Of a stretch of 60,944 bases of DNA, positions 30,952 through 48,738 are shown in pieces. The position numbers and the translations under genes are program-made. Position 1 is the first letter of the stretch, and the number at the start of each line of letters is the position of its first letter. The stretch spans positions 1 through 60,944 of the forward strand of contig JAGBES010000027.1 in NCBI GenBank assembly GCA_017936845.1. The letters are read 5' to 3'. The stretch is from Bacilli bacterium (GTDB lineage: Bacteria > Bacillota_I > Bacilli_A > RF39 > UBA660). The notes under the pieces were generated by a model. The model was not told where the DNA came from, searched no databases, and was given only the letters and a program-made list of their open reading frames with translations.

Positions 30952-31023
30952 CTTGTTTTATAAGGGTTTGCGTGATTTTGAAAAATTAAAAAATTGATAA
31001 AAAAGGCTAATTTTTATCCAAAA

Positions 31024-31152
31024 ACGCAAATTTGTGTGCAAAATGTGTGCATGAATTAAAAATTTATGCACACATTTTTTATAAGCACTTGTAAATAAAG
31101 GGATTAAGCTATGTAAACAAAAAAAATAAGTCAGTAGTTATGCTGACTTTTT
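31024..31152. repeat. Diverged repeat, copy 1 (left edge of accessory cassette 1)
   Basis: The core acgcaaatttgtgtgcaa is followed by a tail containing gattaagctatgtaaa and the hairpin gtcag-tagttatg-ctgac at 31130-31147. Copy 2 at 35199-35346 has the same order: ttgtgtgcaatttgtgtg, gatttagttatgtaaa, and gtcag-tagttata-ctggc. The hairpin loop is nearly identical in both. These look like related junctions flanking inserted DNA; they are too diverged for a recent duplication. Confidence 0.65.
31040..31081 (+). terminator. Terminator of secA, lying within repeat copy 1
   Basis: Perfect 12-13-bp stem aaatgtgtgcat / atgcacacattt, 13-nt loop, T-tract. It coincides with the tgtgtgc motif of the 31-kb repeat, so it may have arrived with that element. 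Confidence 0.75.
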
Positions 31153-31190
31153 AGATTGATGTGATTTTTTAATTATTATAAATATATCTT

Positions 31191-31220
31191 TTAACAAACA
31201 AGAGATTCTTATGGTATAAT
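31191..31220 (+). promoter_or_regulatory. Promoter of the Abi_2/HEPN gene
   Basis: TTAACA (31191-31196), 18-nt spacer, TATAAT (31215-31220) preceded by TATGG, an extended -10. Confidence 0.7.
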
Positions 31221-31243
31221 ATTTATTAATAGGGGGTGTAAAT

Positions 31244-32764
31244 ATGGAAAAGCATTCAAATAATATTCTTATAAAAAATTTGGAGTTAAAAAATATTTCA
31301 TTTGAGGGGTGTAAAAAGACACTTTTTAATAGATACAGTTATTATCAAGTTATCAATGCATATAAATCATTATTTGTAAGTGAAACAGAAAACATAAATG
31401 ATATATATGAAAATATTAATAATAATGAAAAGATAGAAGATTACAAAAAAATGTATTGCATTAATTCTAATATAGACATTTTTAGAGAAATATGTAAAAA
31501 GATATGTAAAAAATATGGCCTAGAATATAATAATACTATGAAAGATACAACACTAATTAAAAATATATCGAAGATAAAATATGTACACCATATTTACCAT
31601 GTTGGAACAAAATATAAAGATTTTGTGAGAATGTATAAGTTTGAACATGAGTTGAGATTGTTATTATTAAAATATACTTTGATAATAGAAGAAAATGTTA
31701 AAAATATATTTGTATCATATTTAAATAATTGTTCAGATGTAAAAGCAAATTTTTTATCAGATGGTAATAATTATAATACTTCACACGGAAACAATGAATC
31801 ATTAGACACGTTAAAATTAATATTAGATAAACAAAAAAATATTCATTCAAAACCCATACAACGTAAAAGAGAACAAGATATTACTATTCCATATTGGATT
31901 TTGATAAATGAACTAGCTATGAATCAAACATACAAAGTAATAAAAAATCTTAAACCGCAATTAAGTTTTGAAATTTTTGAGTCATGTATGAATAATTTAA
32001 CAAATATGAAATGCACAATAAAAGAAATACCAAAAAAAGATGTTCAAAAACATAAAGGATATGTACAATCCTTTAAAAATTTATTGAAATACATTGGTGA
32101 GTTTAGAAATATGCTAGCACACAATCAACCTATTTTTTGTTACAATCATTCTAATTGCGATTTAACACAATTTCCAAAAATTTCATATGAAGTTCCTTAT
32201 ATAAGTTCTAATAGAAGAAAAGAAGAAAAAATGACTGCAGAAGATATTCTTCATGAACAACAAAAAATCAATTCTGTAACGATGTATGATTTAATTAAGT
32301 TTTTTGGTAAAGATGATTTTAATACAAAAAACTATGGTAGGAATATAGATTTATCATTTATTATTTATGTTATATATAAGATTATATCAACAATCGATCG
32401 AAACTCTCATATGTATGATGAATTGATATCTTTATTTAAAAAATATAATATGTTAATTTCATATAATGAAAAAGTAATTGAAAATAATGAAACTGTAGAT
32501 AAACTAATAAAGCAGATAGGTCAAATGGATGAAAATAGTATTGATTTTGATGGTTTGATATATAAAATAGAAAATGGTAAAGGTTATAAAAGAGAATTAT
32601 CAACCTTTATTAAAAATTATAGAGAAGAAATAATCAAATTAAAAAAATTGTCTAATCAAATCAGTTATAAAAAACTTGTTTCTAAATATGATAATTTTAG
32701 TGCAATCGAAAGATACGAGGAATATACAGGTATAAATGCTAGATTTTTTACTATAATTAAATAG
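31244..32764 (+). CDS. Abi_2-family (AbiD/AbiF-like) protein with HEPN RNase motif
   Basis: The 506-residue protein carries an Abi_2-type helical domain at about 110-300: VRMYKFEHELRLLLLKYTLIIE, then IPYWILINELAMNQTYKVI, then KYIGEFRNMLAHNQPIF. The last block contains R288-N-M-L-A-H293, the RxxxxH motif that HEPN ribonucleases use to cleave RNA. A further helical region of about 200 residues follows, longer than in basic Abi_2 proteins. Abi_2 proteins cause abortive infection in phage-exposed hosts, probably by cutting RNA. It has its own promoter, lies in a repeat-bounded cassette, and is followed by a likely small RNA gene. The HEPN call is firm; the defence role is inferred from the family. 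Confidence 0.85.
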   Translation: MEKHSNNILIKNLELKNISFEGCKKTLFNRYSYYQVINAYKSLFVSETENINDIYENINNNEKIEDYKKMYCINSNIDIFREICKKICKKYGLEYNNTMKDTTLIKNISKIKYVHHIYHVGTKYKDFVRMYKFEHELRLLLLKYTLIIEENVKNIFVSYLNNCSDVKANFLSDGNNYNTSHGNNESLDTLKLILDKQKNIHSKPIQRKREQDITIPYWILINELAMNQTYKVIKNLKPQLSFEIFESCMNNLTNMKCTIKEIPKKDVQKHKGYVQSFKNLLKYIGEFRNMLAHNQPIFCYNHSNCDLTQFPKISYEVPYISSNRRKEEKMTAEDILHEQQKINSVTMYDLIKFFGKDDFNTKNYGRNIDLSFIIYVIYKIISTIDRNSHMYDELISLFKKYNMLISYNEKVIENNETVDKLIKQIGQMDENSIDFDGLIYKIENGKGYKRELSTFIKNYREEIIKLKKLSNQISYKKLVSKYDNFSAIERYEEYTGINARFFTIIK

Positions 32765-32811
32765 TCTACATAAAAAAAACAAAAATGAATAAAATAATAT
32801 TAAGTTACATA

Positions 32812-32840
32812 TAGACATTTACATTATATTGTGTTAAAAT
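32812..32840 (+). promoter_or_regulatory. Promoter of the small RNA unit
   Basis: TAGACA (32812-32817), 17-nt spacer, TAAAAT (32835-32840): one mismatch in each box. The start would be near 32847, inside a 220-nt gap with no gene. Confidence 0.6.
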
Positions 32841-32846
32841 GGATAT

Positions 32847-32909
32847 GTAATGAGATTCCATGTTATTTAGTAATATGGAGGAAAAAAGAGAGCTTGCTCT
32901 CTTTTTTTT
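32847..32909 (+). ncRNA. Candidate small RNA next to the HEPN gene
   Basis: A compact unit of about 63 nt: promoter just upstream, hairpin ccatgtta-tttag-taatatgg at 32858-32878, a purine stretch GGAGGAAAAAAG, and an intrinsic terminator at 32882-32909 (gagagc / gctctc with A/T extension and eight T). No gene depends on it: the following gene has its own promoter near 32952-32960. It begins about 80 nt after the HEPN gene. It could be an RNA antitoxin or guide-like partner, or merely an orphan transcript. A 15-codon frame starting ATGGAG inside it is unlikely to be real because it crosses the terminator. Confidence 0.5.
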
Positions 32910-32951
32910 CGTAATAAAATGATATGAATTTTATTATAAAGTAAATTTTTA

Positions 32952-32960
32952 TGTTATAAT
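32952..32960 (+). promoter_or_regulatory. Extended -10 promoter of the WYL gene
   Basis: TGTTATAAT, preceded by TA; no strong -35. It separates the WYL gene from the small RNA terminator upstream. Confidence 0.55.
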
Positions 32961-32984
32961 ATTTTATACATTGGCGGTGATATG

Positions 32985-33464
32985 ATGTCTAAAATTAGTA
33001 ATGTTCTTACTATGATTGAATATTTAAGTACAGGAAAAAAATATAGTATTGCTGAATTGTCTGAAAAGTTAGAAGTTACTCCTAGGATGATTAGAGTATA
33101 TAAAGACGAAATCGAAAAGGCTGGTATTTATATAGATACTATTAAAGGACCATATGGCGGATATGTTCTAAATCAAAATGTAAATGTTCCAAAAAGGTTT
33201 ATAACACCAAATGAAATTAATATAAAAAATAAAAATTTTTTTAATTTAATAAATAGAGCAATTAAAGAAAAAAGAAAATGTTTAATAGAATATTATTCAA
33301 AAAATGAAGACAAAATTTCAAGTAGAATTATTCATCCTTTTGATTTGATTCTTTTAGGTAATGAGTGGGGAGTTGCAGCTTATTGTGAATTAAAAGATGA
33401 AATAAGACACTTTTATATAAATAGAATAAAATTTATTGAATTATTAGAAAATTTTTATAACTGA
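32985..33464 (+). CDS. Short HTH-WYL transcriptional regulator
   Basis: A 159-residue regulator. The N-terminal winged helix is of the HTH_11 type (YSIAELSEKLEVTPRMIRVYKDEI near 20-43, then GIYIDTIKGPYGGYVL). The C-terminal WYL part is shortened: KCLIEYYSKNEDKIS, RIIHPFDLILLGNEWGVAAYCE and HFYINRIKFIELL. WYL domains bind nucleic acid or nucleotide ligands and often control defence genes; full-length members have about 300 residues. ATG 32985 is preferred over 32982 to fit the GGTGAT spacing. Position between the HEPN/small RNA unit and the SIS operon leaves its target open. Confidence 0.82.
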   Translation: MSKISNVLTMIEYLSTGKKYSIAELSEKLEVTPRMIRVYKDEIEKAGIYIDTIKGPYGGYVLNQNVNVPKRFITPNEINIKNKNFFNLINRAIKEKRKCLIEYYSKNEDKISSRIIHPFDLILLGNEWGVAAYCELKDEIRHFYINRIKFIELLENFYN

Positions 33465-33518
33465 CACATATATTACCTCTTTATTTGTTAAGATTTAATT
33501 AAAGAAGGAGGTTTTATA

Positions 33519-34550
33519 ATGATTAAACATACACATACAGATTCATCAGAAATAAATTTTTCAAAGTTAGAAAAAAGAATATTAAATATAAATGATCCGT
33601 TATTAAATAAATCTAATGATATTAGAGAAATGTTATACCAATTGACAATTGATAATATGCCAACATTAATAGTGGCAACAGGGGGATCAAAAGTTGTTGC
33701 ATATTATTTACAATTAATTATAGAAAGATTAGGAATCGATGGAATTATTTGTGAAGTAATAGAACCAAGAGATTATTTTTACAAAGCTAATAGAAATCAA
33801 TTTTCAAATTTAATAGCAATATCTTCAAGCGGTAATACAAATGGTATTAAAGAAGCATTTAATGATTTTAATGGAAGTAAATTTTTAATTACCCAAAATA
33901 ATCAAGAAGCAGATTATCAAGTTGTTTCTTGGAGTAATGAAAAATATGATACTGAAAAAAGTTTTATTTCATTAGTATCTACTTTAGGTCCTATAACATT
34001 AATGCTAGATTCAACTGCTTCATTAAATATGGAAATAGGTTATGATGAAATTAAAAAAATAAATGATAAGATAAAAGAATTATTTATTATAAGTAAAGAA
34101 AAAATAGATAAATTATCAGTTAATTTTAAAGATACATCTTTAATTCAAGTAATAAGTGGTTATGAAACAAAAACATCTAGTAGTATTTTAGAATCAAATT
34201 TAGTTGAAATAGGATTAGCAGCACCAGTCATCCACGATAAAGGTTCGTTTTGTCATGGAAGAAGTAACCTTCTATTTCAGTATCCTAATAGTCATGTAAT
34301 CTATTTATGTCATCAAAGAAGAGAATTAGATGATATATTAATCGAATTAATAAATAGAGAATATTCCAATATATCTATTTTTGATATAGAAGATATAAAA
34401 GAAAACTATTTTTTGAAAGAGTATTATCTTATATTACAAATGTACTTTTTATCTAAGAAAATTGCTGATGATAAAAATATTGATTTAACACAGCCAGAAT
34501 ACAATCCAAAACTGGTAAAAAAACTATATAATTTTAGAGGAGAGATGTAA
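33519..34550 (+). CDS. SIS-domain protein (sugar isomerase fold), unknown substrate
   Basis: The 343-residue protein has two SIS domains. The first shows TLIVATGGSKVVAYYLQ near 49, LIAISSSGNTNGIKEAF near 94-110 with the Ser/Thr phosphosugar loop, and FLITQN. The second includes KGSFCHGRSNLLFQYPNSHVIYL near 240 (quoted in pieces). SIS domains bind phosphosugars, as in GlmS, AgaS or MurQ. The next gene, an ITPase-like enzyme, starts 1 nt after the stop, so the two are translated together. That pairing is unusual and hints at nucleotide-sugar or damaged-nucleotide handling. AAGGAGG precedes ATG. Confidence 0.78.
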   Translation: MIKHTHTDSSEINFSKLEKRILNINDPLLNKSNDIREMLYQLTIDNMPTLIVATGGSKVVAYYLQLIIERLGIDGIICEVIEPRDYFYKANRNQFSNLIAISSSGNTNGIKEAFNDFNGSKFLITQNNQEADYQVVSWSNEKYDTEKSFISLVSTLGPITLMLDSTASLNMEIGYDEIKKINDKIKELFIISKEKIDKLSVNFKDTSLIQVISGYETKTSSSILESNLVEIGLAAPVIHDKGSFCHGRSNLLFQYPNSHVIYLCHQRRELDDILIELINREYSNISIFDIEDIKENYFLKEYYLILQMYFLSKKIADDKNIDLTQPEYNPKLVKKLYNFRGEM

Positions 34551-34551
34551 A

Positions 34552-35166
34552 ATGAAAAATATAATTTATGTGACAGGAAATTATGGCAAATATGTTTCAG
34601 TTAAAGAATATTTTGAAGAAAAAAACATAGGGATTGACTTTTATGAATATGACTTTGAAGAAATTGAAATAAATGATATTGAAAAAATATCAAGAAAAAA
34701 AGCATTAGATGCTTACAACATTTTACAAACACCTTGTTTTGTAGCTGATACAGGATTTTATATAGATAATTATCCTAATAATCCTGGATATCCTGGAGCA
34801 TTTGTTAAAAGAAGTGGAATAAGCTCAGATGTAGAAGGATTACTTGAAACAATGAAGGATGAAACTAATAGATCTTGTAAGTTTGTTGATTGCTTAACTT
34901 TTTATGATGGTTATGAATTCTATACTTTTTATGGAGTAAGTAGTGGAACATTAGCATACAGTAAAAGAGGAGATTCAATAAAAAGAGCAAAATCTAATCT
35001 TTGGTATGTATTTATACCAAATAATTGTGAGAAAACTTTGGCAGAAATGTCTGATGAAGAGAGAAAAAATAGAAATGACGGACATACCTCTGCAACTGAG
35101 TTATTTGCTGAATGGTACCAAAATACTTATTTAAAACAAAGTATAAAAAGATTATCTTTATCATAA
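34552..35166 (+). CDS. Non-canonical purine NTP pyrophosphatase (ITPase/Ham1-like)
   Basis: Ham1/RdgB enzymes hydrolyse ITP, dITP and XTP to monophosphates and pyrophosphate. The 204-residue protein starts IIYVTGNYGKYVSVKEYF (NTP-binding N-x-x-K motif), has FVADTGFYIDNYPNNPGYPGAFVKR near 62-86 (quoted in part) and ends in FIPNNCEKTLAEMSDEERKN followed by DGHTSA. The SHR of the bacterial enzyme is replaced here by GHT, closer to archaeal/eukaryotic-like variants. It is coupled to the SIS gene, not to a housekeeping gene such as rph, so a specialised role in the cassette is likely. Confidence 0.82.
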   Translation: MKNIIYVTGNYGKYVSVKEYFEEKNIGIDFYEYDFEEIEINDIEKISRKKALDAYNILQTPCFVADTGFYIDNYPNNPGYPGAFVKRSGISSDVEGLLETMKDETNRSCKFVDCLTFYDGYEFYTFYGVSSGTLAYSKRGDSIKRAKSNLWYVFIPNNCEKTLAEMSDEERKNRNDGHTSATELFAEWYQNTYLKQSIKRLSLS

Positions 35167-35198
35167 TGATGATAACAATATGAATATGTATAAAAACA

Positions 35199-35346
35199 TG
35201 ATATAATGTATTTAGAGACGAATGAAAATTGTGTGCAATTTGTGTGTCAAAATATAAATTTATACATACAAATGAAATAATCCTTATAAATAAATGATTT
35301 AGTTATGTAAAGAAACAAAGTCAGTAGTTATACTGGCTTTGTTTTT
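35199..35346. repeat. Diverged repeat, copy 2, with promoter and terminator-like ends
   Basis: The order is TGATATAAT (35199-35207), then acgaatgaaaattgtgtgc and aatttgtgtg, a tail with gatttagttatgtaaa, and a strong hairpin caaagtcag / ctggctttg at 35316-35341 followed by T's. The first 54 nt match copy 3 (39972-40025) with only a few changes. As it stands it could be transcribed as a roughly 130-nt RNA. It separates cassette 1 from cassette 2, and its hairpin can also terminate the convergent LysR gene. Confidence 0.65.
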
Positions 35347-35352
35347 ATAATA

Positions 35353-36219
35353 TTATAAATAATTAATAAATGTCTTACTTGCAAAAGTTAAAGATATTGA
35401 TTTATTAGTAGCCAAATACACATTTATATTTGGTATTTTTTTATTTATTTTTAATTCTTCTAAATTTTTAAAATTTCTTTTAGCTAAATCAATTATAACA
35501 AATCCAACTCCTAACCCAATATTAACAAATTCAGTTATTAATTCTTGACTAACAACTTCCATTTTAGGAAGTAGTTTTACATTGTTGTTTAGCGCAATAT
35601 AATCTAAAAATTTTCTGCTATTTGACTGTTCTTTTTGTAATATAAGTGGACAATTATTTAAATCATCGAAATTTGTTATATTATCTTTATAAAATAATGG
35701 ATTATAAACAAATCCTTGTTTTAATTCTTTTATTTTTTTTAAATCTAAATTTGTTTCTTTTATATTACTTTCATTAAATATTACAAAATCTAATTTTCCT
35801 AATTTTAAATCATTTATTAAATTACTAGTTAAGTCATTTGTAATATCAACATTTATATTTGGATAATCAGAGTGAAATTTCTTTAAAGCGTCAAGCAAAA
35901 CTAATTTTGTTAGGGTAGTAGAACAACCTATTTTTATTTCACCTTTAGATAAGTCTTTAAAAGATGTAAATTCATTTTCTGCATTATTTATTAATTCTAA
36001 AGCACCTTTAACATAATTATAAAACATTTTGCCTTCTTCAGTAAGTTCCATTCCTTTATTGCTTCTTAAAAATAATGTTCCTCCTAATTGGTCTTCGAGT
36101 TTTTTTATTGATTGAGATATAGCAGGTTGTGATATGTGTAATTCCTCACTTGCTTTAGTCATATGTTTATGTTTTGCTACAACATAAAAAATTCTATATA
36201 ATTCTAAATTCACATTCAT
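35353..36219 (-). CDS. LysR-family transcriptional regulator
   Basis: The 288-residue LysR regulator starts with a winged helix-turn-helix (MTKASEELHISQPAISQSIKKLE, residues 19-41; LFLRSNKGMELTEEG follows). A periplasmic-binding-like effector domain follows (GEIKIGCSTTLTKLVLLDAL). LysR proteins usually control the divergent neighbour and themselves; here the divergent gene is coaC, 89 nt away. The effector is unknown. A LysR regulator facing coenzyme-A-type genes is unusual and suggests that the operon has a more specialised product. TAAGGAGG precedes ATG. Confidence 0.92.
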   Translation of the reverse strand: MNVNLELYRIFYVVAKHKHMTKASEELHISQPAISQSIKKLEDQLGGTLFLRSNKGMELTEEGKMFYNYVKGALELINNAENEFTSFKDLSKGEIKIGCSTTLTKLVLLDALKKFHSDYPNINVDITNDLTSNLINDLKLGKLDFVIFNESNIKETNLDLKKIKELKQGFVYNPLFYKDNITNFDDLNNCPLILQKEQSNSRKFLDYIALNNNVKLLPKMEVVSQELITEFVNIGLGVGFVIIDLAKRNFKNLEELKINKKIPNINVYLATNKSISLTFASKTFINYL

Positions 36220-36308
36220 TATAAGTCCTCCTTATAAATATTATAACATAAATATATTTTACTTATCAATAATTATGACATATAATTTAGTTAGAAAGAA
36301 GGAATAAT

Positions 36309-36872
36309 ATGTTAAAAAATAAAAATATAGTTATAGGAATAACAGGAGGAATTGCCTGTTATAAGGTATGTGAGATTATTTCATATTTAGTTAGAGAAGG
36401 TGTAAATGTAAATGTTATTATGACTAAGAATGCTACTAAATTTATAACACCCCTCACGATTGAAACACTATCAAAAAATAAAGTAGTAATAGATATGTTT
36501 GAAAAAAAAGAACATGTTGAGGTAGAACATATAAGTCTTGCACGAAAAGCAGATTTAATACTAGTAGTACCAGCTACGGCAAATATTATTGGAAAAGTAG
36601 CAAATGGAATTGCAGATGATATGTTATCAACAACAATTATGGCGACAACTTCAAAAGTTGTATTTGCTCCGGCTATGAATAATGAAATGTATAATAATAA
36701 AATTGTTCAAGATAATATTAAAAAGTTAAAAAAATATGGATATGAATTTATAAATCCTGTAGAAGGTAATTTAGCTTGTGGTTACAAAGCAATTGGTAAA
36801 CTTGCTAAAAAAGAAACAATAATTGAGCTTGTAAACAAAACTTTGAATGGAGGTAGAAAAAATGAAATATAA
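36309..36872 (+). CDS. coaC: Phosphopantothenoylcysteine decarboxylase-like flavoprotein
   Basis: CoaC is an FMN enzyme that decarboxylates phosphopantothenoylcysteine to phosphopantetheine. The 187-residue protein shows IVIGITGGIACYKV at the N-terminus, HVEVEHISLARKADLILVVPATANIIGKVANGIADD (catalytic His in the first part; quoted regions near 75-110), PAMNNEMY near 120, and the flexible flap LACGYKAIGKLA near 157. The stand-alone form, separate from CoaB, is the Streptococcus/Enterococcus arrangement. It heads the operon and overlaps coaB by 11 nt. A related cysteine decarboxylase activity (EpiD-like) is less likely given the coaB neighbour. Confidence 0.87.
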   Translation: MLKNKNIVIGITGGIACYKVCEIISYLVREGVNVNVIMTKNATKFITPLTIETLSKNKVVIDMFEKKEHVEVEHISLARKADLILVVPATANIIGKVANGIADDMLSTTIMATTSKVVFAPAMNNEMYNNKIVQDNIKKLKKYGYEFINPVEGNLACGYKAIGKLAKKETIIELVNKTLNGGRKNEI

Positions 36873-37599
36873 AATAATTATTACAGCTGGTGGAACAAGT
36901 GAAAGAATAGATAATGTAAGAAAAATAACAAATAGTAGCTCCGGAAAATTAGGATGTACTATAGCTAATAAATTAATAGAGTTACACGAAGAAAAAATAG
37001 ATAAAATTTATTATATTTGCTCAAAGAATTCTATTAAACCTAATCATGAAAGAATAGAAATTGTAGAAATATTGGATACACAAGATTTAGAAATAGCAGT
37101 TAGAAATTTATTGATTTATAACGATATTAATTATTTTATTCATTCAATGGCAGTATCAGACTATACCGTTGATTATGTTACAACTGCAGAAAGTTTAGCT
37201 TTGAATATAAATAATAATCCTGATAAAAATGTTCTTGATTTAATTTGTAGTAATAAGGATAATTTAACAGATAGTAAAATTTCATCTAATCAAGAAAATT
37301 TAATCATTAAATTAAAGAAAACTCCAAAAATAATATCTTTAATAAAAGATATTAGTCCAAATACATATTTAGTAGGATTTAAACTACTTGATAATGTTAG
37401 TGAACAAAACTTAATTGATACTGCTGTTAAATTAAAAGAAAAAAACAATTGTAATTTAGTAGTAGCTAATGATTTAGAAAATATTAGAAAGGGAAATCAT
37501 AAAGCATTTATTATTAGAACGTCTGATGATTACGTTATTGCATCATGTAAAGAAGATATTGCAGAAAAAATTGTAGGAGAAATGATTGAAAATGATTAA
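36862..37599 (+). CDS. coaB: Phosphopantothenate--cysteine ligase, stand-alone type
   Basis: CoaB joins phosphopantothenate and cysteine using a nucleotide triphosphate. ATG 36862 is chosen because GGAGG at 36849-36853 is 8 nt upstream; an in-frame ATG at 36847 lies ahead of that site. The 245 residues begin IIITAGGTSERIDNVRKITN, typical of the family. SSSGKLGCTIANKLI, HSMAVSDYTVDYV near 100, LKKTPKIISLIKDISPNTYLVGFKLL and LVVANDLENI follow. Its length and form match the streptococcal stand-alone enzyme. It overlaps the genes on both sides, so expression is translationally coupled. Confidence 0.88.
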   Translation: MKYKIIITAGGTSERIDNVRKITNSSSGKLGCTIANKLIELHEEKIDKIYYICSKNSIKPNHERIEIVEILDTQDLEIAVRNLLIYNDINYFIHSMAVSDYTVDYVTTAESLALNINNNPDKNVLDLICSNKDNLTDSKISSNQENLIIKLKKTPKIISLIKDISPNTYLVGFKLLDNVSEQNLIDTAVKLKEKNNCNLVVANDLENIRKGNHKAFIIRTSDDYVIASCKEDIAEKIVGEMIEND

Positions 37600-38263
37600 T
37601 TATAAAAAGATTTATGTTTCAAGAGTTGATAATAAAATTATTGATAAAACATATAAGAATTTATTAGAAAATAAATGGCATTTTGTAATTTTAGATGTAA
37701 ATGGTGTACTAAATGTTTTAACGAAGGAAAAAAGTTTATTTGAAATAAAAAATGAACAACAATTTATTTATGAATTTGAACAAGATAAACACTATAAAAC
37801 AATTATTAATAATCAAAAAATAATCATCAATGAAAAAGATTTAAAAATTTACAAGGAATATATAGAAAAATATAAATATATAATGCAGAAAAATATTTAT
37901 GGTGACAAATATATATTTGGAAGTGTAGCAGTTAAAACTGAAAATGGATTTATTACTACGATAAGAGGAAAAGAAGATTTAAATGAATATACACTTGTAA
38001 ATTTTGTAGATCATACAAATCATACTTTAAATGTTATAAACAAAAAAGCAACTTTAAATGCTCCACTATTAGATTATTTATTTAAAAATGACAATGTTAA
38101 AGTAATTGTTCATATAAATCATGAATTTGATGACAGATTACCATATTATGATTATGCTTTTCCAGGAACTGTAAAAGATTCTATTAGAAATAATAAAACC
38201 TCATTTAATATTAAACATCATGGTGTTATATATTTATTTGATAAAAATGGTAACTTAATTTAA
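37592..38263 (+). CDS. Class II aldolase/adducin-like protein
   Basis: The last 120 residues of this 223-residue protein fit a class II aldolase fold: FGSVAVKTENGFITTI (cf. GNISxR), KATLNAPLLDYLF (cf. PSSE...H), VKVIVHINHEFD with two His, and KHHGVIYLFD with a third His, giving the zinc ligands. The first 100 residues form an additional domain I do not recognise. Members are sugar-phosphate aldolases, epimerases or dehydratases. The start is ATG 37592 (TTG 37586 possible), overlapping coaB. Its presence inside a coaBC operon is odd: no step of CoA synthesis needs an aldolase. Confidence 0.68.
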   Translation: MINYKKIYVSRVDNKIIDKTYKNLLENKWHFVILDVNGVLNVLTKEKSLFEIKNEQQFIYEFEQDKHYKTIINNQKIIINEKDLKIYKEYIEKYKYIMQKNIYGDKYIFGSVAVKTENGFITTIRGKEDLNEYTLVNFVDHTNHTLNVINKKATLNAPLLDYLFKNDNVKVIVHINHEFDDRLPYYDYAFPGTVKDSIRNNKTSFNIKHHGVIYLFDKNGNLI

Positions 38264-38275
38264 GGAGGAAAGAAA

Positions 38276-38911
38276 ATGAAATATCCAAAATATTATATAT
38301 ATGAAAAATTATATAGAAGATACTTTTTAAAAGGTGTAAATTACATCATTAAAGAAGCAGATTTAACTTCTGATGATAGAGTGTTAGATATATGTGGAGG
38401 AAACGGAAGATTAACAAAAGAACTGGTAAAATTTAGTAATAATGTTAGTTATTTAGATCAAGAAAAAGATATGATACCACTAGATTTAGAACAATTAGGT
38501 ATCAAAATATATAATGAATCAATAGAAAACTTTGTAGATAATGCAAGTGAAAAATATACTAAAGTTTTTTGTGAACAAGCAATTAATTATTGGTTATTAA
38601 ATATTGATATTAAAAAGTTTAGTGGTTTATTAGAAAAAGGTGGTTTATTTATATTTAATACATTTTCAAATAAGCCATCAAATAAACCAATGATTAAAGA
38701 ATATAACCTAGACAATAAAAGTTATTTGGAAATATCTTATTTAATAGATAAAAAAGTTTATCATATACAAGTATGTGAAGGATATGAGCCTCATTTTACT
38801 GTATTTGGTTGGATATCAAGAGAACAATATATAAAATTACTTTCACCATACTTTGATATAGAAGTAAAAGATGATGGTAAAAGTTCACTTTATATTTGTA
38901 AAAGGAGATAA
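38276..38911 (+). CDS. SAM-dependent methyltransferase
   Basis: The 211-residue protein has a class I methyltransferase fold: SAM motif DRVLDICGGNGRLTKEL near 35-51, VSYLDQEKDMIPLD as the acidic strand 2, KVFCEQAINYWLLNI near 100, and LLEKGGLFIFNTFSNKPSN near 120 as the post-motif region. The substrate is unknown. It follows the aldolase gene by 12 nt with AAGGAGG, and the PLP gene starts 2 nt after its stop. In this operon it probably modifies a small molecule made by the neighbours rather than nucleic acid; that is inference. Confidence 0.82.
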   Translation: MKYPKYYIYEKLYRRYFLKGVNYIIKEADLTSDDRVLDICGGNGRLTKELVKFSNNVSYLDQEKDMIPLDLEQLGIKIYNESIENFVDNASEKYTKVFCEQAINYWLLNIDIKKFSGLLEKGGLFIFNTFSNKPSNKPMIKEYNLDNKSYLEISYLIDKKVYHIQVCEGYEPHFTVFGWISREQYIKLLSPYFDIEVKDDGKSSLYICKRR

Positions 38912-38913
38912 TT

Positions 38914-39927
38914 ATGAAAAATAAATCTCTTGGAATATACAATATAATTGATACTGACGGAATAAATAAAAGTATAAATAATGTATTATCTAGTGGTATT
39001 AATTTTAATACATATACATCTCCAAAAGGCTTAAAAGAATTACGTATTGAAATTAGCAGTTTTTTAAATGACATTTGGAATTATAATATAAATTACAAAG
39101 ATATGTTAATTACAACTGGTTCTCAACAATCAATTAATCTTGTAGTATATTCATTATTAAATGAAGGTGATACTGTTTTAATAGAACAACCAACATATTT
39201 TGGAGCAATAAATGTTTTTAGAAATAAAAAAGTTAATTTAGTAGGTATTAATTTAAATGAAGAAGGATTTGATTTAAAAGATTTAGAAAGTAAAATAATT
39301 AAATATCATCCAAAGCTAATCTATGTTACTCCAACATTTAATAATCCGACTGGATATTCTTGGAGCAATAAATATAGAAAAAAATTTTTAGAAATTATTA
39401 ATAAATATGGTATTTTGGTATTAGAAGATGATCCTTATAGTTTAATTAATTATACAAATTATCAATATAAAAGTTTATATAAATTGAATAATGGAAGAAA
39501 TGTTATTTACTTAGGTACTTTTTCAAAATATATTAGTCCATCAATAAATGTAGGATATATAATATCAAATGATAACATTTTAAAAACAATATATTCATTT
39601 AAAGAGAGTTTTGACTTATGTACACCTTTATTTATTCAATTGATTGTTTTAAATTATCTTCAAAATAATAATATTAAAAATATAATAAATAATAGAATAC
39701 CAGTGTATAAAAAACTTTTAGATAAGACTATAGAATACATAAATAAAAACTATTCAGAATCTATTTTATCTTATTCTAAAGTAAAAGGTGGCTTATTTAT
39801 TCATATGAAGTTTAAAAATGAAATAGATAACAATATTTTTGAAATAGGTAATAATTATTATATAGATAAAAATCATAGAAATGAAACTAGAATTAATATA
39901 TGTAGCACATTAATAGACAATAGCTAA
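38914..39927 (+). CDS. PLP-dependent aminotransferase class I/II-like enzyme
   Basis: The 337-residue protein resembles the aminotransferase domain of MocR/2-aminoadipate aminotransferase-type enzymes: YTSPKGLKELRIEISSFL near 30, TTGSQQSINLVVYSLL near 66, VTPTFNNPTGYSW near 138, LEDDPYSLINY near 169, and GTFSKYISPSINVGYI near 200, whose Lys should bind PLP. The usual C-terminus is somewhat short, ending ETRINICSTLIDN. Substrate unknown. It is the last gene of the coaC-headed operon, after which repeat copy 3 begins. Confidence 0.85.
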   Translation: MKNKSLGIYNIIDTDGINKSINNVLSSGINFNTYTSPKGLKELRIEISSFLNDIWNYNINYKDMLITTGSQQSINLVVYSLLNEGDTVLIEQPTYFGAINVFRNKKVNLVGINLNEEGFDLKDLESKIIKYHPKLIYVTPTFNNPTGYSWSNKYRKKFLEIINKYGILVLEDDPYSLINYTNYQYKSLYKLNNGRNVIYLGTFSKYISPSINVGYIISNDNILKTIYSFKESFDLCTPLFIQLIVLNYLQNNNIKNIINNRIPVYKKLLDKTIEYINKNYSESILSYSKVKGGLFIHMKFKNEIDNNIFEIGNNYYIDKNHRNETRINICSTLIDNS

Positions 39928-39971
39928 TTATAATTTAATAATAAAACAACGTATAGTTCTTTGAAAAAAAG

Positions 39972-40025
39972 TGATATAATTGATTTATAAAACGAATGAA
40001 AATTGTGTGCAATTTGTGCTCAAAA
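39972..40025. repeat. Diverged repeat, copy 3 (right edge of cassette 2)
   Basis: TGATATAAT followed by acgaatgaaaattgtgtgc and aatttgtgctcaaaa, nearly the same as copy 2 at 35199-35252 with one single-base shift. A short cctTATAAA motif near 40087 echoes the copy 2 tail, but the gtcag hairpin is missing. Confidence 0.7.
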
Positions 40026-40307
40026 ATTCCAAAACATATGGTACTAATATTACTATATGTATCATATATACCAAATCTTCTCAGTCCTTATAAACCTAGG
40101 AAAATATATAATATTATGTACTATATATACTGAAAAAGTATATATATGTTGTTGAGATAAAAAAATTAATAAATTTTAAAATAAAACTGTATAAAAAATT
40201 TTTATAAAATCTAATTTAAATTTATTTAATTATTTGAAGAATGAAGGAAAATTTAATTAAAAATATTTTAAACATAATGGTATAATATAGGTGACAGAGG
40301 TGATTAT
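40026..40307. other. AT-rich intergenic region after repeat copy 3
   Basis: No gene is seen. It holds the imperfect repeats catatggta / tatatgta near 40041-40075, a hairpin tatatac / gtatata near 40124-40146, and an extended -10 (TGGTATAAT, 40278-40286) for the next gene. The rest is A/T-rich sequence without clear structure. Confidence 0.5.
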
Positions 40308-41729
40308 ATGCGAATAGGTGTAGATATAGATAATGTTTTATCAAAGTTTAATGAATCACTATTAGATGAATTTTTAATTGAAGATAAAAATAAAAGAAAT
40401 AGTGGAATAATTAATAATGATTTATATATTACTAGAGGAATGCTTGATTGGTCTAAAGAAGAAACAGATGAATTTTATAATAATAATATTGAAAGAATTG
40501 CTATCAACTTAGATATGGTAGATAATGCATCATATTATATAAAAAAATTAAAAGAAGATGGTAATGAAATCTATATTATTAGTGGTAGAGATAATGGTGA
40601 ATATTCTGATCCTTATAATATGACTATAAATTGGTTAAAAAAGTATGATATACCTTATAATGAATTAATTTTAACAGATGCTTATAGACACCAAGAAAAG
40701 GCAGATATATGTAAAGAAATTGGAATAGATGTAATGATAGATGATTCTATCAATGTTTGCACTAAATGTAGTGAAAGTAATATAGAATGTATTTTATTTG
40801 AAACACCATTTAATAAAAATGATAATAGATTTAATAGATTAAAGAATTGGGAAGAAATATATAACTATATAAGTAATAAAAAAATAAATGTTGTATTAGA
40901 TACTGATACTTATAATGAATGTGATGATCAATTTGCTTTATCTTATTTAATTAAGAGTCAAGATAAATTTAATATAGAAGCAATTACTGTTGCTCCTTAT
41001 TCACATAAAACAAGAAATATATCTGTTCCAGAGGGACAAGATTTAAGTTATAATGAAATACTTAAAATATGTAAATGGCTTAATTTTGATACTACTAATA
41101 AAGTGTTTAAAGGATCTATGGATTATATTCAAAATGGCTATAATGAAGATAGTGATGCTGTAAACAAAATAATTGAAGTAGCACTTAAAAACAATAAAAC
41201 TTATATTTTAGGAATTGGAGCAATTACTAATATAGCACTAGCTATTAGAAAAGAACCTAAAATAATAGATAAGATAGAAGTAATATGGTTAGGTGGTAAC
41301 CAGTTAAATTATAAAGATAATTTAGAATATAATTTTAGACAAGATATTGAAGCAGTTAAAATAGTATTTAATTCAAAAGTTAGATTAACTATATTACCAT
41401 GTAAAGAAGTTATTTCTAAATTAAGAATAGATATAAATACATTAAAAGAAAATATTGGAAATAAATCAGAATTATGTGATTATTTAATAGATAGATTTTA
41501 TAATGATGGATATCATGGAATACAAGAAGTAAGAACAATTTGGGATATATCTGTTATTGCTTATATGAAAAATAAAAATTGGTTTAAAAAAGAAGTAATA
41601 AGTTGTCCAAATATAAAAAATGATAGTTCTTATGAATTAACAAATGATAATCATAGAATAAATATGATTATTGACATAGATAGAGATAAAATATATGAAA
41701 ATTTATTTGATAATCTAGGTGAATTGTAG
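40308..41729 (+). CDS. Fusion of a 5'-nucleotidase-like HAD domain and a nucleoside hydrolase
   Basis: The 473-residue protein joins two enzymes. Residues 1 to about 185 are a HAD phosphatase of the NT5C/5'(3')-nucleotidase type: MRIGVDIDNVLSKF with the DxD nucleophile, IYIISGRDN, and DVMIDDSINVC. From about 190 a nucleoside hydrolase (IUNH) begins: VVLDTDTYNECDDQFALSYL supplies the calcium-binding Asp cluster, followed by YILGIGAITNIALAI and IEVIWLGGNQ. Together these would turn a nucleoside monophosphate into free base and ribose. AGGTGAT precedes ATG. The next gene overlaps it by 1 nt. Domain calls are good; the fused arrangement is unusual. Confidence 0.85.
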   Translation: MRIGVDIDNVLSKFNESLLDEFLIEDKNKRNSGIINNDLYITRGMLDWSKEETDEFYNNNIERIAINLDMVDNASYYIKKLKEDGNEIYIISGRDNGEYSDPYNMTINWLKKYDIPYNELILTDAYRHQEKADICKEIGIDVMIDDSINVCTKCSESNIECILFETPFNKNDNRFNRLKNWEEIYNYISNKKINVVLDTDTYNECDDQFALSYLIKSQDKFNIEAITVAPYSHKTRNISVPEGQDLSYNEILKICKWLNFDTTNKVFKGSMDYIQNGYNEDSDAVNKIIEVALKNNKTYILGIGAITNIALAIRKEPKIIDKIEVIWLGGNQLNYKDNLEYNFRQDIEAVKIVFNSKVRLTILPCKEVISKLRIDINTLKENIGNKSELCDYLIDRFYNDGYHGIQEVRTIWDISVIAYMKNKNWFKKEVISCPNIKNDSSYELTNDNHRINMIIDIDRDKIYENLFDNLGEL

Positions 41730-42262
41730 TGAGCAGAATAACTTTAATAACATATTTTGATGAAAAACAATTAGATATAATTAATAAAATTTTAAGAAAC
41801 ATCAATTTTAAAATGTGCAAAGTTCCCTATGGTATAAACGATAATAAAAGGTATGAAATTGATAATCTACCGTATCATTTTACAATATTTGCAACAGATA
41901 AAATAAACCAAGATAAACTATTAAACATTACAAAGAATATAAAAATGGATAAAATAAAATTAAAAGTTAATAAAGTAACAATTGGAAATCTCAAAAATGA
42001 TAGTTTTATTGTATATTTTGGAATTGAAGATAATTATTTCATGAAAAATTTACAAAGGAATTTTTACGAAATAATACCAGAAGAAAAATATAATCCTGAT
42101 AAATTTAATTTTCATATGACAATACATATAGATAAAAATTTTAATATAGTTAATAATTTATTTGGAATGATACAATTAGAATTCAAACCATTTTATATTG
42201 AATTTAATAAATTAGCATTATATGATTACCCTGGGGAAATGATTGAAACAATTGAATTTTAA
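41729..42262 (+). CDS. 2H phosphoesterase superfamily protein
   Basis: The 177-residue protein has two HxT motifs characteristic of 2H phosphoesterases (LigT/2'-5' RNA ligase, cyclic phosphodiesterases): LPYHFTIF near residue 49-56 and NFHMTIHID near 128-136. Each follows a strand, and together they form the twofold active site. Such enzymes open 2',3'-cyclic phosphates or 2'-5' bonds. The GTG start shares a base with the previous TAG stop, so it is translationally coupled to the nucleotidase/hydrolase fusion. The substrate is unknown; a cyclic or 2'-phosphorylated nucleotide fits the context. Confidence 0.72.
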   Translation: MSRITLITYFDEKQLDIINKILRNINFKMCKVPYGINDNKRYEIDNLPYHFTIFATDKINQDKLLNITKNIKMDKIKLKVNKVTIGNLKNDSFIVYFGIEDNYFMKNLQRNFYEIIPEEKYNPDKFNFHMTIHIDKNFNIVNNLFGMIQLEFKPFYIEFNKLALYDYPGEMIETIEF

Positions 42263-42307
42263 AAAAATAAGACTATTAATAAAATATAAGTAAATAAGGT
42301 GGTATAA

Positions 42308-42910
42308 ATGAAACTAAATAGTAAAGAAGCAAGAGAACTTTTAGAAAAAGAAAGGGTTAATCAAAAAGATGATAGATGGATAGGACACAGTATTTGTGTT
42401 GGAGATAGTGCTGGTAGAATTGCTAAAGCATTACAAGATAAAGGAATAGATGTTGATGTCGATAAAACGATTACTCTAGGATATATTCATGATATAGGAA
42501 AATACAATGGAGATTCAGCGGGGCATGTTATGAGGGGATATGAGTATCTAAAAGAAAAAGGATATGATGATGAATATTGTAATATTTGCCTAACACATTC
42601 CTATTTAAATAATGATACATTATGCACAGCAGGAGGAATTCCGAATGATATTCCATTTAGAACTAAATTTATTAAAAATCACGAATATACAATTGAAGAA
42701 AAATTGGTTAACTTATGTGATTTAATGTGCCCACAAGGTGGAAAAATATTTACAGTGGATAAAAGACTAATAGATATTATGATTAGAAGAGGAGCATATT
42801 CTAATACCCAATATCATATAAGAGAAACATATAAATTAAAAGAATATTTTGATGATTTATTAGGTTATAATTTATATGATTTATTTCCAGAAATAAAAAA
42901 TAATTTATAA
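42308..42910 (+). CDS. HD-domain metal-dependent phosphohydrolase
   Basis: The 200-residue protein has an HD fold: GHSICVGDSAGRIA near 27 (first His), TLGYIHDIGKYNGD near 60 (the HD pair plus Lys), LTHSYLNND near 97, and LVNLCDLMC near 137 as the final Asp. HD enzymes remove phosphates from nucleotides or cut cyclic dinucleotides. It closes a run of three nucleotide-directed enzymes downstream of repeat copy 3 and probably shares their transcript. Substrate unknown. Confidence 0.82.
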   Translation: MKLNSKEARELLEKERVNQKDDRWIGHSICVGDSAGRIAKALQDKGIDVDVDKTITLGYIHDIGKYNGDSAGHVMRGYEYLKEKGYDDEYCNICLTHSYLNNDTLCTAGGIPNDIPFRTKFIKNHEYTIEEKLVNLCDLMCPQGGKIFTVDKRLIDIMIRRGAYSNTQYHIRETYKLKEYFDDLLGYNLYDLFPEIKNNL

Positions 42911-43172
42911 TTTAGATTAATTTTAATGTTAACATATTTATCTAGTATTTATTTTTTGTCAAAAAATTTAAGAAAGAGGATATGTATGAGTAATATTAAA
43001 AACACTCAAAAATAAAACATTTTGATGAATTATAATATTGAAAATTCATCTTTTTTTATTAAAATAATATGGTATAATTAATTTGATAAGTAATTATTTA
43101 ATTAAGTTAATTGAATAGTATTAAAATAAAATTATAGTTATAATATATAATTTTTATTAAAAGGAGGATATA
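42911..43172. other. Intergenic region with a minimal frame, terminator and ABC promoter
   Basis: Between the HD gene and the ABC operon there is a 9-residue frame (42986-43015, MSNIKNTQK) with an AGAGGA ribosome site. A clear terminator follows at 43024-43057 (gatgaatt / aattcatc, seven T), then an extended -10 promoter TATGGTATAAT at 43068-43078. The mini-frame may be a leader peptide or the remnant of a lost gene. Confidence 0.5.
43024..43057 (+). terminator. Terminator upstream of the ABC operon
   Basis: Eight-bp stem gatgaatt / aattcatc with an 11-nt loop and seven T. Confidence 0.8.
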
Positions 43173-43895
43173 ATGTTAGCTATTGAAATAAATAATTTAA
43201 CAAAAAAATTTAAAGAAAAAAAGGCAATTAATTCCATTAATTTAACAATAGATGAAGGAGAATTATTTGCTTTGTTAGGGACAAATGGAGCAGGAAAAAC
43301 AACAACAATAAAAATTCTTTCAACACTTATATTACCAACAAGTGGTAAAGTTAAAATAGCAGGTTTAGATATTATTAAAGATAGACAAGAAATAAAAAAA
43401 ATATTAAATGTTTCTCCACAAGAAACAGCAATTGCTCCAAATCTTTCTGTAAAAGAAAATCTAGAATTTATGGCTGGCGTTTATCAAATAAAAAACAAAG
43501 AAAAAAAGATAAATGAACTTATAGAAATGTTTAAATTAGAAGAAGTTTTAAAACAAAAAGCAAAAACATTATCGGGAGGATGGCAAAGAAGAGTATCAAT
43601 TGCAATATCATTAATTAATGAACCTAAAATATTATTTTTAGATGAACCAACATTAGGATTAGATGTAATTGCTAGAAAAGAATTATGGAATATTATAAAA
43701 AAATTAAAAGGTAAGATTACAATTATATTGACTACTCATTATATGGAAGAAGCAGAAAGTTTATCAGATAGAATTGGTATCATGTCAAAAGGAAATTTAG
43801 TAGATGTAGGAACATCTGAAGAACTTATAAATAAATCAGGCACTAAAAATTTTGAGGATGCATTTATAAAGATAGCAACAGGAGGAGAATTATAA
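43173..43895 (+). CDS. ABC transporter ATP-binding protein (drug/daunorubicin-type exporter)
   Basis: The 240-residue ATPase has Walker A LLGTNGAGKTTTIKIL near 32-47, signature LSGGWQRRVSIAISLI near 135, Walker B ILFLDEPTLGLD near 155-166 and H-loop LTTHYMEEAESLSDRIG. The GGW after LS is a small variant of LSGGQ. This class (CcmA/DrrA-like) pairs with ABC-2 permeases to export drugs, peptides or polysaccharides. The permease gene starts 1 nt after its stop. AAGGAGG precedes ATG and an extended -10 promoter lies at 43068-43078. Confidence 0.93.
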   Translation: MLAIEINNLTKKFKEKKAINSINLTIDEGELFALLGTNGAGKTTTIKILSTLILPTSGKVKIAGLDIIKDRQEIKKILNVSPQETAIAPNLSVKENLEFMAGVYQIKNKEKKINELIEMFKLEEVLKQKAKTLSGGWQRRVSIAISLINEPKILFLDEPTLGLDVIARKELWNIIKKLKGKITIILTTHYMEEAESLSDRIGIMSKGNLVDVGTSEELINKSGTKNFEDAFIKIATGGEL

Positions 43896-43896
43896 A

Positions 43897-44628
43897 ATGA
43901 GAACATTAAATTTTGCAATAAGAAATTTTAAAGAAATTATAAGAGATCCATTAAGTATTGTTTTTTCTATTTTACTACCAATGTTTTTACTATTTGTATT
44001 TCAGCAAATTAACATTCCTAATGAAAATTATGAATTAAAAAATTTTACACCTGGAATTATTATATTTGGATTTTCCTTCATTACTCTTTTTACAGCAATG
44101 CTAATTTCTAAAGATAGAACTACATCGTTATTAGTTAGATTAGGAATAAGTCCTATGAAACCTATTGAATATATATTAGGTTATATATTATCTATAATTC
44201 CTATCATATTAATACAAAACTTGCTATTTTTTATACTAGCTATTATTTTAGGATTAAGTTTTAGTATAAATATTGTATGGTCGATACTTATATCATTATT
44301 AATTGCAATATTATTTATTTCAATAGGTATAATTATTGGTAGTATTTTTACTGAAAAATCTTCATCAGGTATATCAAGCATTATAGTTCAACTTGTATGT
44401 TTTACAAGTGGTATGTATTTTCCTAAAGAATTACTAGGAAACACATTCTCAAAAATTTGTGAAATTTTACCATTTGAATCATGTGTAACAATAATAAAAG
44501 GAATTATGAATAACAACATAGAAATAATAAATACAAAAAATATAATAACTTTTCTGATTTATTCAATCATATTTTTAATAATTTCAGTATGGATATTTAA
44601 AAGAAAGATGATTAGTGATAATAAATAA
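43897..44628 (+). CDS. ABC-2 type transporter permease
   Basis: The 243-residue protein has about six membrane spans. The first follows FAIRNFKEIIRDPLSIVFSILLP, a typical ABC-2 start (quoted in part). The loop KDRTTSLLVRLGISPMKPIEYILGY lies between TM2 and TM3, and GMYFPKELLGNTFSKICEILPFESC near the end is the usual conserved extracytoplasmic turn. It pairs with the adjacent ATPase in an export system. Substrate unknown; no accessory or immunity gene is adjacent that would name it. Confidence 0.88.
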   Translation: MRTLNFAIRNFKEIIRDPLSIVFSILLPMFLLFVFQQINIPNENYELKNFTPGIIIFGFSFITLFTAMLISKDRTTSLLVRLGISPMKPIEYILGYILSIIPIILIQNLLFFILAIILGLSFSINIVWSILISLLIAILFISIGIIIGSIFTEKSSSGISSIIVQLVCFTSGMYFPKELLGNTFSKICEILPFESCVTIIKGIMNNNIEIINTKNIITFLIYSIIFLIISVWIFKRKMISDNK

Positions 44629-44706
44629 TGGCTAAGTTTTTAATATATACAAAAAAAATAAAATATGATATAATTACTTAAATAAACTTAAAGAGGAGAT
44701 TTAATT

Positions 44707-48311: not shown

Positions 48312-48388
48312 GGGCGATTAGCTCAGTTGGTTAGAGCACCTGCCTTACAAGCAGGGGGTCATAGGTTCGAGTCCTATATCGCCCACCA
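48312..48388 (+). tRNA. tRNA-Val (TAC)
   Basis: Acceptor GGGCGAT pairs with ATCGCCC, discriminator A, encoded CCA; the anticodon loop CTTACAA gives TAC. Confidence 0.97.
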
Positions 48389-48389
48389 T

Positions 48390-48465
48390 GCCGAAATGGC
48401 GCAATTGGTAGCGCAACTGACTTGTAATCAGTAGGTTGCGGGTTCGATTCCTGCTTTCGGCACCA
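48390..48465 (+). tRNA. tRNA-Thr (TGT)
   Basis: Acceptor GCCGAAA pairs with TTTCGGC, discriminator A, encoded CCA; the anticodon loop CTTGTAA gives TGT. Confidence 0.97.
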
Positions 48466-48473
48466 TTTTATTT

Positions 48474-48557
48474 GGAGGGGTAGCGAAGTGGTCAAACGCG
48501 GCAGACTGTAAATCTGTTCCTTCGGGTTCGATGGTTCAAATCCATCTCCCTCCACCA
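48474..48557 (+). tRNA. tRNA-Tyr (GTA)
   Basis: Acceptor GGAGGGG with TCCCTCC (one G-T pair), encoded CCA; the anticodon loop CTGTAAA gives GTA. A long variable arm is present, as in bacterial tRNA-Tyr. Confidence 0.97.
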
Positions 48558-48569
48558 CTTTAGTTTTAT

Positions 48570-48645
48570 TGCCTCGTAGCCAAGTGGTAAGGCACCACAC
48601 TTTGACTGTGGCATTTCGCTAGTTCGAATCTAGCCGAGGCAGCCA
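48570..48645 (+). tRNA. tRNA-Gln (TTG)
   Basis: Acceptor TGCCTCG pairs with CGAGGCA (U1-A72, typical of Gln), discriminator G, encoded CCA; the anticodon loop CTTTGAC gives TTG. Confidence 0.96.
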
Positions 48646-48662
48646 TTTTTAAAATTATATAT

Positions 48663-48738
48663 GTCCTGTTAGCTCAGCCGGTAGAGCATCTGACTTTTAA
48701 TCAGAGGGTCGGCGATTCGAATTCGCCACAGGACACCA
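48663..48738 (+). tRNA. tRNA-Lys (TTT)
   Basis: Acceptor GTCCTGT pairs with ACAGGAC, discriminator A, encoded CCA; the anticodon loop CTTTTAA gives TTT. Last gene of the cluster. Confidence 0.97.

Follow-up and report, generated by a model that had tools for sequence, protein, structure and literature searches.

A conserved fusion of a nucleotidase-type phosphatase with a nucleoside hydrolase, paired with an HD hydrolase on a mobile module with a putative role in nucleotide disposal

Consecutive steps of nucleotide breakdown normally reside on separate enzymes. In this report we describe, in a 60,944-nt stretch of DNA from a Bacilli bacterium (hereafter the window, meaning the whole stretch analyzed), a single polypeptide in which an NT5C-type HAD phosphatase is joined to a nucleoside hydrolase (NH); its two active sites are intact, and an HD hydrolase is its standing partner. 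This fusion is real, conserved and undescribed as far as the searched literature shows, where no earlier description of a nucleotidase/NH fusion was found. Moving between the genomes of tiny gut bacteria, the fusion and its partner form a module that probably serves nucleotide disposal; an antiviral role is unproven. The module is relevant to the control of nucleotide pools in near-minimal gut bacteria, and its pathway, substrate and partner are directly testable with two purified proteins.

Results

The ORF at 40308–41729 encodes one polypeptide of 473 aa. In Pfam profile searches, PF06941 (NT5C) matched aa 3–188 (E 1.4e-9, 38.5 bits against a cut-off of 24.8) and PF01156 (IU_nuc_hydro) matched aa 195–461 (E 1.5e-23, 84.3 bits against a cut-off of 34.2). 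Folds point the same way: the best HAD match to the AF2 model of the whole fusion is the deoxyribonucleotidase-like 3bwv, while the NH half (residues 190–473) superposes on ZmNRh2b with a Z of 22.5 over 261 residues at 3.8 Å, the fold matches listed for this half all being NHs or NH-fold proteins. The model has a middling pLDDT of 66.7, and a domain interface or channel is beyond what it supports. Active-site conservation was judged on 17 fused homologs, which are 42–88% identical. In the HAD half, where motifs I–IV are present, D6, D8, R94, K131, D145 and D146 are invariant and position 92 (S92 in the window) is always S or T. In the NH half, D198, D200, N203, D207, E340, N342, W412 and D413 are invariant and D206 nearly so, the motif D198-T-D200-TYNEC-D206-D207 being two residues longer than a Ca-binding motif of the DxDxxxDD type. 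In the alignment, the invariant W412 takes the place of the catalytic His of the Crithidia enzyme (1mas), and Y273, also invariant, is a candidate, placed by sequence, for the second aromatic of the β3-α3 loop. Among the hits, the closest named relatives are MAGs such as Candidatus Onthousia (Bacilli). The first-pass annotation had thus been right to see an NT5-type phosphatase and an NH in one polypeptide, and its proposal that such a protein could in principle take an NMP to the free base in two steps fits the predicted domain anatomy.

Two further ORFs follow in the order first read, a 2H phosphoesterase and then an HD hydrolase. The reported 1-nt overlap is genuine, base 41729 being common to the stop codon of the fusion and the GTG start of the 2H ORF, and the HD ORF starts 45 nt past the end of the 2H ORF. 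Matches of the 2H ORF to 2_5_RNA_ligase2 and LigT are weak (E 1e-4 and 2e-4, both under the Pfam cut-off); it carries both HxT motifs (H50-F-T52 and H129-M-T131). The HD protein matches PF01966 in the profile search (E 4.6e-10), and its invariant H27, H61, D62, H73, H97 and D138 form an H...HD...H...H...D pattern, which suggests a two-metal site. Its AF2 model (pLDDT 83) is closest to the HD domain of PgpH (Z 10.4), with YqeK-like proteins, YfbR, YpgQ and others nearly tied with it (Z 8–10.4). Between the window and close homologs, dN/dS is about 0.10–0.30 for the NT5 half, 0.17–0.27 for the NH half, 0.25 for 2H and 0.09–0.15 for HD, values so far under 1 that none of these is a chance ORF.

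Table 1. Features of the module and of the island that carries it (positions in the window)
Feature	Position	Strand	Basis or remark
Variable island from secA to the bPH gene, with the module as cargo	30952..44706	.	Collinearity with G001 on both sides
Abi_2/AbiD gene	31244-32764		7.5 kb, eight or nine genes, from the fusion set
Ham1/RdgB-type ITP/XTP diphosphatase	34552..35166	+	PF01725, E 1.5e-22
NT5C-type HAD phosphatase domain (aa 1-190)	40308..40877	+	PF06941, invariant residues, fold match 3bwv
Nucleoside hydrolase domain (aa 191-473)	40878..41729	+	PF01156, plant NH fold, invariant residues
2H phosphoesterase with two HxT motifs	41729..42262	+	Weak Pfam matches, HxT motifs, dN/dS 0.25
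HD hydrolase	42308..42910	+	PF01966, invariant residues, AF2 model, PgpH match

A survey of the window's GTDB family (386 genomes, 150 genera) found relatives at E <= 1e-30 in 33 genomes, spread over 25 genera. By our count, 21 of those 33 genomes have both NT5 and NH domains, fused or as adjacent ORFs, which puts the module in about 5% of the family. In a class sample of 336 genomes the fusion was confined to family members, with one NH-only match outside. Plasmids yielded stand-alone NHs only, at about 33% identity or less. A phage origin was rejected, since no relative of the module was found in 50,697 phage records and viral contigs gave only distant NT5-like matches. Fused, split and stand-alone forms are intermixed in one clade of the NH tree, so both fusion and fission have occurred. 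In three separate genomes (L079, L081 and L093), NT5 and NH are overlapping ORFs; any single case could be a sequencing error, but assembly error as the whole cause of the split forms was discarded in view of these three genomes and of the tree, which requires repeated changes between fused and split states.

The conserved unit is the fusion with HD, not the trio. Of the 21 fusion genomes, 20 have HD, a gene that occurs in 54 of the 386 family genomes (hypergeometric 5e-18, uncorrected for kinship). At 19 of 23 loci it follows the fusion in the same orientation, with spacings from −80 to +1139 nt, and at a twentieth, L034, a different HD protein (PF01966) holds that position; the outer flanks of these loci have little in common. 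The identities of fusion and HD correlate only partially (Mantel 0.44, p 0.004): compared with the window, L082 has a fusion 46% identical and an HD 84% identical, and L035 a fusion 71% and an HD 57% identical. Such re-pairing points to a repeated functional pairing rather than plain co-inheritance and, with the partial correlation, indicates that the pair was assembled more than once.

By contrast, the 2H gene adjoins the fusion in the window alone among the loci compared, which rules out the trio as a conserved system; of the co-occurrence that the first reading had proposed to survey, the fusion–HD part holds and the 2H part does not. Five loci have one or two genes between fusion and HD, and 2H is one of several interchangeable occupants of this slot: it is taken by 2H in the window, by a histidine phosphatase in L078 and L082, by a HAD protein plus a second HD in L073, and in L085 by a candidate serine hydrolase whose motifs read as class A beta-lactamase-like. 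The 22 relatives of 2H in the 386 family genomes include none found adjoining a fusion; at 6 of about 20 loci (L174, L176, L177, L178, L182 and L193) they adjoin, or lie one gene off, stand-alone NT5-type proteins. L034 has another 2H-type protein directly before a protein (3750–4823) in which an NT5-type domain is fused to a GNAT acetyltransferase domain, with an MFS-like transporter gene on the other flank. Two further loci (L183, 3560–4930; L186, 3981–5372) encode a 2H domain followed in the same protein by a C-terminal domain apparently of the leucine carboxyl methyltransferase type.

The setting of the module is mobile. The window and the same-genus genome G001 are collinear on either side of the island and differ in gene content within it, which makes the module cargo at an insertion hotspot after secA; integrase or mobilization genes adjoin some copies. 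At the same post-secA site, G001 has in a row genes for a NUDIX protein, an NT5C-like HAD protein (its NT5C match lying under the Pfam cut-off) and a DUF84 (NTPase_I-T) ITP/XTPase. Ham1 and DUF84 proteins are house-cleaning ITP/XTPases. The ITPase side of such house-cleaning is illustrated by PMC9016069. The ITPase-like enzyme noticed at 34.5 kb in the window is indeed a Ham1 member, and it is a possible upstream step for the module. Its proposed place in the same pathway has some support: the G001 row at the same site speaks for it, but Ham1 lies 5 kb upstream of the fusion in the same island and is not a recurrent neighbor.

Several other features of this region were recorded. The G001 site also has an inositol monophosphatase-family gene. 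An HTH-WYL regulator, an SIS-like protein and Ham1 form a tight same-strand row at 32982–35166, the SIS-like protein weakly matching the retron-associated NDT_II-A profile (E 5e-4). The ORF at 38914–39927 encodes a MocR-type aminotransferase domain without the DNA-binding part, the PdxR profile being matched only from position 112. A 36-nt repeat with the palindromic core AAATTG-TGTG-CAATTT occurs twice (35218–35253 and 39992–40027; 21 nt identical), flanking a LysR/CoaC/CoaB/methyltransferase/aminotransferase block; it was not found in the other loci, and no chance matches are expected. Outside the island, a minus-strand ORF at 48331–48600 is spurious: its 97% conservation in G001 is due solely to the tRNA cluster at 48312–48738, which it crosses in antisense.

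The host assembly (1.12 Mb, 34 contigs, 88% complete) bears on the fate of the released base. Profile searches of it gave no NadE above the cut-off, no NadD and no PF00156 phosphoribosyltransferase (PRT); the corresponding controls were positive in 14, 11 and 14 of 14 known genomes. The PRT search covered PF00156 in the window's genome, Upp belonging to a different Pfam family, and missing PRTs could sit in the gaps of this 88% complete assembly. G001 has a 14-kb NAD/PRPP operon, PncA-PncB-NadE-Prs-NadD-NadR-PncC-NT5-NrtR-NadK with other genes interspersed; the corresponding site in the window, between 21465 and 22101, is uninterrupted and lacks the operon. Together with the missing NadE, NadD and PF00156 proteins, this absence suggests that the lineage recently lost NAD and PRPP-dependent synthesis. 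Within the stated completeness, bases released by the NH are then apparently not recoverable by PF00156-type PRTs, which makes disposal or ribose harvest a better fit than base salvage.

Discussion

We tentatively favor, as the best explanation of these findings, a one-way disposal of unwanted purine-type ribonucleotides by a bifunctional enzyme and its HD partner on a mobile module, and nucleotide disposal is the most likely role of the module. The HAD domain would remove the 5'-phosphate from a ribonucleoside monophosphate, and the calcium-type NH domain would then split the nucleoside into free base and ribose. HD, the standing partner, probably works one step upstream as a two-metal phosphohydrolase that would convert a nucleoside polyphosphate or dinucleotide to the monophosphate, and 2H would be an exchangeable addition, able to open a phosphoester. 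The targets of this mobile cargo might be, for example, deaminated, damaged or foreign purine-type ribonucleotides, with base salvage no part of its purpose. Since the NHs characterized to date share a requirement for ribose (PMC8910321), we expect ribonucleotides as substrates, despite the NT5C names, which suggest deoxynucleotides; by analogy, the NH step should not work on deoxynucleosides derived from dNMPs. The purine preference that we propose is read from one aligned Trp, W412: this position is a His in group I NHs and a Trp in purine-specific group II NHs (PMC8910321), and some purine-specific NHs lack this Trp (reviewed in PMC10526354). The post-secA row of NUDIX, NT5C-like and ITP/XTPase genes in G001 gives some support to disposal and to the ITPase link.

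The main alternative, not very likely but to be kept in mind, is a catabolic module that degrades scavenged ribonucleotides for the energy in their ribose (and for phosphate), as in starved yeast, with the bases excreted or reused. In yeast, Phm8/Urh1 feeds ribose into the pentose phosphate pathway (PMC4039369), and stand-alone NHs have catabolic neighbors elsewhere, a Klebsiella plasmid NH of the same subfamily being flanked by genes for a PfkB sugar kinase and a nucleoside transporter, and a Mesorhizobium NH following an ABC importer. In the neighbor tables and the Pfam census, however, the fusion has neither a sugar kinase nor a nucleoside transporter as a recurrent neighbor, the module is restricted to about 5% of family genomes, and the host assembly gave no PF00156 PRT for base reuse. 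A nucleoside salvage operon fares no better, the same tables and census showing no recurrent transporter, kinase or PRT beside the fusion; trios in salvage operons with transporters, the arrangement that the first-pass annotation had itself named as telling against its reading, were looked for in the neighbor tables and not seen. In a host without detectable PF00156 PRTs or NAD synthesis, irreversible release of the base is hard to explain as salvage.

Disposal also has a bolder form, which we consider unlikely: a mobile, dedicated nucleotide-destroying module in which a one-polypeptide NMP-to-base machine, fed by HD, would clear foreign or damaged nucleotides (or starve an invader) in near-minimal bacteria unable to remake nucleotides from bases or to make NAD.

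Quite unlikely is a module for NAD metabolism, which would convert NMN or NaMN to the riboside and then to nicotinamide, while HD would cleave NAD or defective dinucleotides. This seemed strong at first, as the main reading, from three loci. An HD ortholog (L170, 5218–5796) lies between PncC and NrtR inside the NAD operon of G007, another adjoins NrtR in G192, of the same genus as G007, and the fusion with HD is three genes off NrtR in G206; an NT5 relative (45%) holds a similar place in the G001 NAD operon, and NrtR is enriched among fusion genomes, where 13 of 21 have it as compared with 119 of 386 overall (p 0.002). Related enzymes also count in its favor: the YqeK HD protein of Mycoplasma splits NaAD analogs (PMC9426524) and yeast URH1 has a part in nicotinamide salvage (PMC11241417). 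Yet about 36 of 40 NAD operons are without any of these genes, and the genome of the window has neither the operon nor NadE or NadD, so that nicotinamide would be a dead end there. These operon counts and this host weakened the NAD link, which is suggestive only.

An anti-phage effector, a module that drains the nucleotide pool once triggered, is very unlikely. The sparse, mobile distribution, the integrase or mobilization genes by some copies and the Abi_2 gene within the same island would suit it, and phage defense had been the theme first proposed. Against it, no defense family recurs among 128 neighbors, a sensor or trigger domain is absent, PADLOC gave no above-noise match for fusion, 2H or HD, and the phage records hold no copy; the abortive-infection gene thought to lie beside the set is in fact several genes away (Table 1). 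A role in detoxifying a nucleoside-like antimicrobial or a toxic nucleotide analog is likewise improbable. In its favor, NT5 relatives in L034, L174 and L177 keep company with MFS-like exporters, GNAT domains and 2H; but these are NT5 paralogs, and outside L034 the association does not involve the fusion–HD pair itself.

The proposed nucleotide disposal by a fused enzyme can be set against several known systems. The NH of Klebsiella michiganensis p8BG, among the closest plasmid homologs of the NH half (about 33%), has no NT5 domain and no HD, and its PfkB-NH-nucleoside transporter operon is a classic setting for nucleoside catabolism. Group II NHs such as T. vivax IAG-NH share with the fusion a Trp immediately ahead of the final Ca-binding Asp (W412-D413), but the fusion has a longer D-T-D-x5-D-D motif, an attached phosphatase and only about 15–16% identity to the T. 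vivax structures. Two-metal HD phosphohydrolases of the YqeK/PgpH type have the H...HD...H...H...D pattern of the window HD, and the PgpH domain superposes on it over 154 residues at 4.2 Å, although identity is only about 19% and the Z values of many HD enzymes are tied. Phm8 of yeast is, to our knowledge, not an NT5C member. With Urh1, an NH, this HAD NMP nucleotidase carries out the same two reactions in the same order and with the same superfamilies (PMC4039369), but as two separate proteins with no HD partner, and in the service of ribose salvage. Plant XMPP and NSH1/NSH2 also perform the two steps as separate proteins (PMC8616923), and they are eukaryotic, with a narrow specificity for XMP; like the fusion as we read it, they place an NMP phosphatase before an NH and send the products to disposal, in their case through purine catabolism.
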